Source of the DNA: Cerasicoccus arenae
Lineage (GTDB): Bacteria > Verrucomicrobiota > Verrucomicrobiia > Opitutales > Cerasicoccaceae
Assembly: GCF_014651635.1 (NCBI RefSeq)
Contig: NZ_BMXG01000025.1
Span: forward strand, 1-58,947
Reading direction: 5' to 3'
DNA: 58,947 bases
The translations under genes were made by a program, and so were the position numbers. Of the stretch, positions 25,824 through 50,227 are shown in pieces (the first letter of the stretch is position 1; each line of letters begins with the position of its first letter). The notes below the pieces were generated by a model, which was not told where the DNA came from, searched no databases, and saw only the letters and a program-made list of their open reading frames with translations.

Positions 25824-26939
25824 ATGCCACGAATTGCGCGCAGTTGCATTGAAACCATCCGCCAGCAGGTCAGTCTGGTGGACGTGGCCGGGGCATATAC
25901 CCAAATGAAGCGTGCCGGGGCGCAATGGCGTGGACTCTCCCCTTTTAATACCGAAAAGACACCCAGTTTTTACGTCCATCCCGAAAAAAACGTCTTCCAC
26001 GACTACTCCAGCGGCAATGCCGGCGATCTTTTCCGCTTCGTTATGCTCAAGGAGAACCTGGGCTTTAACGACGCCATCGAGTTCATCGCCAGTCGCTACA
26101 ACGTCCCTCTCGAATACGACAACGACGGTGCCCCTCCTGAGCGTGCCTCGCTACGCAAAGAACTTTTCACTTTGCACGAAGTCGCGGTTGATTATTTCCA
26201 TCGCGCATTCTTCGCCGATCATCCTGAGGCAGAATTCATTCGTCAGTATTGGACCGAAAAGCGCCATTTCCCGATCGAAGTTGCCCGTGAGTTCAAAATC
26301 GGCTTGGCACCCTCGAATGGCGATGGCTTCGTCAAATACATTGTAGACAAGGGCTTCTCGATGGAGGCGCTGAAGGCCTGCGGACTGCTCTACATCTTCG
26401 ACAATGCGCGTGACGCCTCCCGGGCACGGGCGCGTTTCCGCGGTCGGCTAATGATCCCCATCCGTGACATTCAAGGCCGCGTCATCGCCTTTACCGCTCG
26501 CCAGACCGACCTCACGCCCGACGACGACAGCTCCAAAGAGGCCAAATACGTCAACTCGCCAGAAACTCCGATTTTCTACAAAAGCGGCGTGCTCTTCGGC
26601 CTAGACCACGCCCGCCAGCACATCGACGAATCCAAAGCCTTCGTCCTCGTCGAAGGCCAGTTGGACTGCCTACGCTGCTTCGAACAGGGTGTCCACACCG
26701 CCGTAGCACCACAGGGGACCGCGATCACCGAACAGCAACTCGGCCTCTTGCGCAAATACACGCCCAAGCTGGAAGTCCTACTCGATGGCGACCGCGCCGG
26801 TCAGAAGGGCGCGATGCGCATGCTCCCTCTCGCTTTAGCCGCTGGGTTAGAGGTCTATTTTTTGCCCTTACCAACGGGTCTGGACCCCGACGACTTACTC
26901 CGCGACGGGGGGGGGGGGGGGGCTAGACGCACTCCGTGA
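25824..26939 (+). CDS. dnaG: DNA primase, N-terminal part (frame broken at 16-G tract)
   Basis: Primase makes RNA primers at the replication fork. The preferred start is 25824 (MPRIARSCIETIRQQ); 45 upstream codons are non-homologous. The N-terminal CHC2-like domain keeps PFNTEKTPSFYVHPEKN and SSGNAGDLFRFVM but has lost all zinc ligands (the usual CPFH is SPFN and CFGCG becomes DYSSG). The RNA-polymerase domain follows, then TOPRIM with the FVLVEGQLDC stretch and LLDGDRAGQKG. The frame then enters 16 G (26907-26922) and terminates as [11 protein letters not shown] multiple of three would continue directly into the next part. Likely a sequence error, real frameshift or slippage site. Confidence 0.9.
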   Translation: MPRIARSCIETIRQQVSLVDVAGAYTQMKRAGAQWRGLSPFNTEKTPSFYVHPEKNVFHDYSSGNAGDLFRFVMLKENLGFNDAIEFIASRYNVPLEYDNDGAPPERASLRKELFTLHEVAVDYFHRAFFADHPEAEFIRQYWTEKRHFPIEVAREFKIGLAPSNGDGFVKYIVDKGFSMEALKACGLLYIFDNARDASRARARFRGRLMIPIRDIQGRVIAFTARQTDLTPDDDSSKEAKYVNSPETPIFYKSGVLFGLDHARQHIDESKAFVLVEGQLDCLRCFEQGVHTAVAPQGTAITEQQLGLLRKYTPKLEVLLDGDRAGQKGAMRMLPLALAAGLEVYFLPLPTGLDPDDLLRDGGGGGARRTP

Positions 26940-27666
26940 GAAACGCCTCACAGCGATGAAGTTCGCCGTCCAGTCCTTATTACCAAATATGGGCCAAGCT
27001 ACCCCGCGAGACAAAGCTGCGACCTTGGAAACGCTCTACACAGCATTAGCAGGTTGTGACTCAGCCATCGTCCGGGGGGAATATTTGGACGAGTTGGCGC
27101 ATCTGACCCGCACTGACCGAAGCGCGATGGAGTCTGACTTCCGACAGCATCGCCAACGGGATAATCGCGCCCAAGGCCCAAGACCCTTACCACCTGCACA
27201 AGAAAACAAATCCAATGAAAAATTGACAAGTGCGGAATCTGTTCTATTGTTCGTCGCTTTACACCGGCCGGATTTGGCCCAGTTTTATGCGCAAACCATT
27301 GAACATGAATGGCTTGATCCTTCCAAACGCGACGGAAGGCTCCTTGGCCTTATCCTCGCGGAATCGGAGAATGACCACTGGGAAGGCGTAGAAACACTGG
27401 AACCACTACTTGAAAATGAGGACGAACGGAATTATATATATCAATTGCTCACGCGCGAACTTTCCTTCGAAGATCCGGTCCAAGCTGTTAATGAGTGCAT
27501 CCGACGCATATTTGAGCAGCACCTTAAAGGCGCTCAACAAGCCTTGGAAGAACGCATTTTAAACGCTAATAGCGGAAACCCGGAGCAGACCCGCGCCCTG
27601 CATCACGAACGCATCCGACTTCGCCGCCTTAAGCATCAGCCACCCCAGATAGAATTGCCCACTTAA
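26923..27666 (+). CDS. dnaG: DNA primase, C-terminal part
   Basis: Continues dnaG in the +1 frame from [21 protein letters not shown] directly after the 16-G tract; the first ATG here is 26956. It holds the end of the core and the helical C-terminal domain that in other bacteria binds the DnaB helicase (helices around [19 protein letters not shown] and [20 protein letters not shown]). It ends 19 bases before rpoD, in the classic dnaG-rpoD macromolecular synthesis order. A freestanding protein from 26956 would lack the active site, so an intact DnaG requires indel correction or frameshifting. Confidence 0.85.
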
Positions 27667-49450: not shown

Positions 49451-50227
49451 ATGGCCTCCCCCCCCCCCCCATCCCACATTCGCGCCGACGAATTACTACT
49501 TTCACAAGGTGAAGTGGATTCCCGCGCTGTGGCCCAACGCCTGATCCGCGCCGGTAAAGTGCTGCGGTCTGACGGATCAGTCGTCAACAAGCCTAGCCAG
49601 AAGCTTCCCGAGGACGAACGACTAATCATCTCTGAGCCCATACGCTTCGTTTCTCGAGGCGGCGACAAGCTGGAGGCCTGGTTCCAAGCCTTCCCGCTGG
49701 ATATCACAGAAATGAATGCGCTCGACGTGGGAGCCTCCACGGGCGGCTTCACGGACTGCCTGCTCCAACGCGGCGCGGCGCACGTCACCGGAATAGATGT
49801 GGGACACGGCCAACTCCACCCCCGCCTCGATGACGATCCACGTGTTGTCAGTCTGGAAGGAATCAACGCGCGCGCACTGGACGAAGTGGAACTGCCGCAC
49901 GAAACCTACCCACTGGTCGTCGCGGATCTGTCCTTTATCTCTTTAAAGAAGGTACTCACGCCAGTCTGGAACCGCGTTGCCCCCAATGGGCGGATTTTTC
50001 TTCTCGTCAAGCCGCAGTTTGAAGCACCCAAGGAAATTGTCACCCGCACCAAGGGCATCATTCGAGATAAAGCTGTCCGTGCAGACGCACTGGCCTCGGT
50101 TCGGGATTACGCCCTTTCCTTGCCTGGTGCGATACTCATCGGTGAGCTCGAATGCCCCATAGCCGGCGGAGACGGTAATCGGGAGTATCTGATCGGTCTG
50201 CAAAAAGCCGCCCAGCCGTCAGATTAA
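49451..50227 (+). CDS. tlyA: TlyA-family rRNA 2'-O-methyltransferase
   Basis: 258 residues. N-terminal S4 RNA-binding domain (~10-70, RADELLLSQGEVDSRAVAQR), then an FtsJ/RrmJ-like methyltransferase (~70-250) with FVSRGGDKLEAWFQ, SAM motif ALDVGASTGGFTDCLLQ, and VVADLSFISLKKVL and LVKPQFEAPKE. TlyA enzymes methylate cytidines in 16S and 23S rRNA and were first named haemolysins. The first codons sit on a 13-C tract that reads Pro-Pro-Pro-Pro in frame; the true start may be further inside. Confidence 0.92.
   Translation: MASPPPPSHIRADELLLSQGEVDSRAVAQRLIRAGKVLRSDGSVVNKPSQKLPEDERLIISEPIRFVSRGGDKLEAWFQAFPLDITEMNALDVGASTGGFTDCLLQRGAAHVTGIDVGHGQLHPRLDDDPRVVSLEGINARALDEVELPHETYPLVVADLSFISLKKVLTPVWNRVAPNGRIFLLVKPQFEAPKEIVTRTKGIIRDKAVRADALASVRDYALSLPGAILIGELECPIAGGDGNREYLIGLQKAAQPSD

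Follow-up and report, generated by a model that had tools for sequence, protein, structure and literature searches.

Homopolymeric runs in bacterial genomes

A survey of 99 prokaryotic genomes found a general under-representation of poly(C) and poly(G) tracts longer than 2 bases (PMC2831843). Where long G runs are described in bacteria, they vary in length and switch genes (PMC2831843). Long homopolymers are also slippery for RNA polymerase (PMC3711429); the available part of that paper makes no mention of dnaG or primase. For a coding poly-G run in mycobacteria, slippage has been put forward as the source of an extra protein isoform (PMC7835394), and the accessible part of PMC2831843 mentions that polymerase slippage provides a rescue in Buchnera.

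Cerasicoccus, a member of the Opitutae, consists of non-motile aerobic cocci, as summarized in the portion of PMC10288369 available. The stretch of Cerasicoccus arenae DNA analysed here, termed the window, is 58,947 nucleotides long and contains a primase gene, dnaG, that changes frame at a run of 16 G.

The primase gene and its frame break

Primase is essential in bacteria. In the window, its gene is laid out as follows:

25824..26939, + strand: first dnaG frame, with a CHC2-like domain, DNAG_N and TOPRIM, then an out-of-frame end and stop (reading frame and profile matches)
26907..26922, + strand: run of 16 G between the two dnaG frames (16 nt, versus 15 nt in the congener G002)
26923..27666, + strand: second dnaG frame, with the remaining primase core and the C-terminal domain (frame reading and comparison with G002; weak PF10410 match)

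The first frame runs from the ATG at 25824 to 26939 (371 codons), and the second reads on from 26923 to the stop at 27664-27666. The part before the tract is identified as dnaG by TIGR01391 at 313.4 bits, which passes the curated NCBIfam cut-off of 283.6, and it contains CHC2, DNAG_N and Toprim_2, the last at 274-359 of 361. The part after the tract gives no match in an NCBIfam search; its only match is to PF10410 (DnaB_bind), at 19.8 bits, slightly below the cut-off of 20.6. There is a single dnaG match in the whole genome, and the assembly contains no continuous dnaG ORF through the core and the C-terminal domain, the frame changing within exactly 16 consecutive G residues at 26907-26922. 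The window contains 25 matches to GGGGGGGG, more than expected by chance: 100 shuffles gave 1.83 on average and never as many as 25. Thus, the claim of a previous sequence-only reading, that a 16-G tract splits dnaG into two frames, is borne out. That reading also assigned TOPRIM to one frame and the C-terminal domain to the next. One point needs correction: the break falls directly after TOPRIM, yet within the RNA-polymerase core. In the solved structure of the Aquifex core (2AU3, 407 residues), another 73 residues follow the last one matched.

The N-terminal domain (25824-26120) differs from that of Aquifex DnaG in that all four CHC2 zinc ligands are replaced (NCPFH..FKCFGC in Aquifex, LSPFN..FHDYSS in the window). 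Ser is found for the first Cys in all 32 rows obtained from 35 loci, some of these loci being one record twice, and outside the window's family most rows retain one Cys (for example, FKCFSS). Because the loss of zinc ligands is common to the family, it is not a sign of dnaG decay.

The sequence-only reading had suggested that tract length be compared with that of relatives, and this was done. A dnaG match is present in 53 of the 54 genomes searched, the window's genome included, and in 50 of the 52 other genomes dnaG is open over 611-780 aa. Shorter genes are found in G023 (489 aa) and G053 (373 aa), the latter starting at base 2 of its contig. A motif scan for the tract position recovered 18 of 30 loci, including that of the window. 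Only the window has a G run there; the other 17 loci have at most 4 consecutive G within the printed stretch. In three congeners, the position is occupied by five codons (KGAGA, QGADA, QGANA), or 15 nt, and the frames are open. The closest named matches, two of the 5 loci found, are Cerasicoccus frondis (88%) and C. maritimus (86%).

G runs across the genome and the order

The 4.13-Mb genome contains 265 overlapping G12 matches, 132 on one strand and 133 on the other. There are 331 runs of at least 10 G preceded by another base, which is C in 75 cases, A in 186, and T in 70. On contig C1 (383 kb), G/C runs number 19 at length 7, 33 at length 8, 11 at length 9, 14 at length 10, and 10 at length 11, with a tail reaching 20 and more. 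A/T runs on this contig fall off steadily and none is as long as 10; the excess is confined to G:C. The G-run spectrum takes off at about 8, and this dip at 7 followed by a rise at 8 would be in keeping with growth of G runs once they pass a certain length. In the congener G002, no G/C run of at least 8 was found in 400 kb and three were found in 1.6 Mb, and its whole genome (5.1 Mb) has no G12 match. Given the general under-representation reported in PMC2831843, the window's genome is unusual by that yardstick. The unusual feature is the abundance of G runs, even within housekeeping genes, which lay outside the view of the sequence-only reading.

Any G12 match at all is present in 93 of 273 genomes of the order; few genomes are rich, and these are spread over families. 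Counted as overlapping positions, in assemblies that differ in quality, the richest are G232 (565), G095 (293), the window's genome (G000, 265), G220 (250), and G143 (209). As G232, G095, G220, and G143 belong to different families and are comparable in G12 or richer, the trait is patchy. A search for literature on G-run richness in this bacterial group, in which subscription papers were mostly out of reach, yielded nothing on point. The main text of PMC12699852, as far as available, contains neither "Verrucomicrobi-" nor "poly-G".

Several genomes or contigs have G runs distributed unevenly between strands. In G093, all 138 overlapping G12 positions lie on one strand (0 against 138), a set that may be an artefact, and G001 has 4 against 52. 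Within the window's genome, runs of at least 10 G are biased to one strand per contig, with 12 of 13 on the + strand of C6 and 19 of 24 on the - strand of C8, which suggests a link to replication or gene direction.

The window contains a second long run:

49458..49470, - strand: 13 G, read as 13 C in tlyA just after the start codon (run search)

The TlyA-like ORF (49451-50227) is open in the assembly, and its product begins MASPPPPSHIR. The 13-C run at the start of this gene (window 49451-49480) is a candidate on/off site.

Various causes of the run excess were considered and rejected. Loss of mismatch repair does not explain it: this genome and the three congeners all carry mutS and mutL in open frames. 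Loss of a DinG-type helicase fares no better, with two PF13307 matches here and likewise in three congeners. Among 85 runs of at least 8 with full flanks (C1 and the window), no flanking motif was found except a preferred preceding A. A general preference among Gly codons was rejected as well, since single conserved Gly residues are encoded by GGG equally often here and in the congener (shares of 0.13 and 0.12). Where three or more conserved Gly follow one another, the share is 0.16 here and 0 in the congener. GGG-GGG pairs are above expectation in both genomes (7 versus 2.45 here; 3 versus 0.69 in the congener).

Reading frame at short and long runs

A total of 223 runs of at least 8 were considered for comparison with homologues in G002. 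The comparison covers the 37 that have a G002 ORF on both sides in the 1.6 Mb of G002 compared; the other 186 are without a G002 ORF in those 1.6 Mb and were left out. Runs of 8-12 are in frame in 29 of 30 cases. The sole exception is a 9-G run in nadC, where the compared stretch also spans the frame-breaking 16-G run of that gene. Among pairs in which both flanks are at least 60% identical, many short runs sit where the congener has Gly-Gly or Pro-Pro encoded with other third bases; in FVIIGGGATGLG, for example, GGG GGG GGG is found where the congener has GGC GGC GGC. Other short runs lie in poorly conserved stretches, and their residues differ from those of the congener. Within 18 runs of at most 12 whose length is unchanged, 35 of the 44 GGG/CCC codons are synonymous with the congener's, corresponding mostly to GGC, GGT, and CCG. 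Judged from these alignments, the short runs look real and under selection, and the 29 of 30 in frame argue that selection on the frame is strong in general.

Longer runs lose the frame. At lengths 13-14, 2 of 3 runs are in frame relative to G002, the exception being the 13-G run of gcvP, which falls in the HGGGGPG stretch of the congener. At 15 or more, in a class of 4 genes only, none is in frame: dnaG, ilvD, and nadC, each with 16, and a gene with a run of 20, which we read from its sequence as VWA-like. The nadC gene has a single match in the genome. By Fisher's test, the difference between runs of 8-12 and those of at least 13 has a p value of 5.6e-5 without the confounded nadC 9-G row and 2.7e-4 with it; for pairs with at least 60% identity, counted by hand, it is 20/21 versus 1/6 (p=4.3e-4). 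A homologue-free test based on ORF length is weaker, with 75/85 runs of 8-12 in frame versus 6/11 of those of at least 13 (p=0.013), and over four cut-offs its p value ranges from 0.0066 to 1. In this test, all 3 informative runs of at least 15, including that of dnaG, are out of frame, while 6 of 8 runs of 13-14 are in frame, one of those out being the tlyA run, which lies at a gene start where the test is ill-suited. Codon composition, a weak and noisy measure, gives 65 in and 11 out for 8-12 versus 8 in and 3 out for at least 13, with no clear contrast. Because several runs of 13-14 look in frame, frame loss is not general above 12; the out-of-frame 13-G run of gcvP indicates that lengths can be off below 15 too.

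The assembly fails beside long runs. Contig C1 contains three N gaps, and each has a run of at least 14 no more than 60 nt away. At least 8 of 50 runs of at least 13 have a contig end within 100 nt; by our own arithmetic (126 ends x 100 nt in 4.13 Mb), the expected number is about 0.15. The ends concerned are the starts of C1, C2, C4, C12, C14, and C41 and the ends of C18 and C27; the window itself ends in C8. Most simply, the assembly did not resolve run lengths of about 15 or more.

Explanations for the frame break

Together, these observations argue that the G run in dnaG is real, that its length was probably miscounted in the assembly, and that living cells probably have an in-frame dnaG and an intact primase. 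The run is a genuine long G homopolymer, one of hundreds in the genome, located in what appears to be a tolerant loop of the primase core directly after DPDDLLRD, where congeners have five variable codons. The reads, presumably short, would have been unable to fix the lengths of runs of about 15 or more, and the assembled 16 would be a counting error or else the consensus of a run that varies in length. Most living cells would then carry dnaG in frame and make one normal primase. Since long runs are out of frame, short ones are in frame, and N gaps and contig ends occur at long runs, the counted length is untrustworthy. In addition, dnaG, ilvD, nadC, and gcvP are all out of frame at once, which makes several real breaks unlikely. 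Thus, among the options raised by the sequence-only reading, an error in homopolymer length is favoured by the finding that several housekeeping genes lose the frame at long runs and keep it at short ones, and by the gaps and contig ends at long runs.

An unlikely alternative is that the frameshift is real and that slippage by RNA polymerase generates mRNAs of mixed lengths, some of them in frame, as for the poly-A runs of Buchnera. The reports of slippage cited at the outset are in keeping with this idea, and genes that are out of frame at long runs only would be expected if long runs were tolerated. However, failure of the assembly at long runs accounts more simply for the same pattern, and the in-frame state of 29 of 30 shorter runs speaks for generally strong selection on the frame. 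It is similarly doubtful that a mutational bias toward G:C runs in this lineage, under which a run of about 8 becomes an attractor and grows, has filled essential genes with hypermutable tracts and left dnaG, ilvD, nadC, and gcvP truly out of frame in much of the DNA and rescued at the level of mRNA by expression that tolerates slippage.

There is also little reason to expect that the run is hypermutable and variable in length and that an out-of-frame variant from a mixed culture was assembled; in its extreme form, this would be a contingency switch. The 16 G are far above the length of about 8 at which the spectrum takes off, and a long homopolymer that sets the frame does lie in the coding region, which is one criterion for a contingency locus. 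The length-variable G runs reported elsewhere in bacteria likewise fit this explanation. However, the named cases here are housekeeping genes, not surface genes, and dnaG is present in single copy. Switching off a single-copy primase would be lethal, and the variable switch envisaged in the earlier reading is accordingly improbable for this gene.

It is very improbable that the G runs are largely artefacts of base calling, in which real bases were overwritten by G. Platforms that read G as an absent signal can overcall it, and many short runs are equal in length to the congener sequence that they replace. However, the runs respect the protein, in that 35 of 44 GGG/CCC codons carry the residue of the congener, a match that base-calling errors are not expected to produce. 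The equal numbers of G12 on the two strands also argue against an artefact, as does the density of runs on C1, which is 155 per Mb in aligned conserved coding sequence versus 222 outside it.

Finally, the idea of dnaX-like slippage, a programmed frameshift that yields a short and a long DnaG, can be dismissed almost completely: the run where the frames overlap does look slippery and is soon followed by a stop, but none of the 17 recovered relatives has the run and the slippery site is not conserved, a single frame is open throughout in 50 of 52 relatives, the 100 nt downstream show an unremarkable fold, much like that of shuffled sequence (z -1.05; equalled or exceeded in stability by 32 of 200 shuffles), and the short product would miss part of the catalytic core.

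Comparison with known systems

In draft genomes, housekeeping genes that seem to be interrupted by long G runs call for caution, as they are probably miscounts. With hundreds of runs here and almost none in the congener, this genome offers a testable case for the accumulation of G runs of at least 8, and the same contrast bears on what it costs to have hypermutable sites within essential genes.

Like Helicobacter, Campylobacter, and Neisseria, this genome has many long G/C runs, some of them within genes and frame-changing (for H. pylori, PMC2831843). Unlike in those genera, the runs here lie in housekeeping genes, are in frame when short, and coincide with Gly-Gly and Pro-Pro codons; A/T runs of at least 10 are not in excess. 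Buchnera is similar in having a homopolymer-rich genome with genes out of frame at poly-A runs (PMC2831843). In the present case, however, the runs are G:C, the lineage is free-living (PMC10288369), and short runs are in frame. The frdB-frdC locus of Mycobacterium bovis and BCG provides another parallel, with a coding G run of 10 to 22 that changes the frame and for which slippage has been proposed; unlike here, this is one locus at a gene end, re-sequenced, and not a genome-wide excess (PMC7835394). The resemblance to dnaX consists in one replication gene with two possible products, but the dnaG of the window has neither the conserved slippery site nor the downstream structure.
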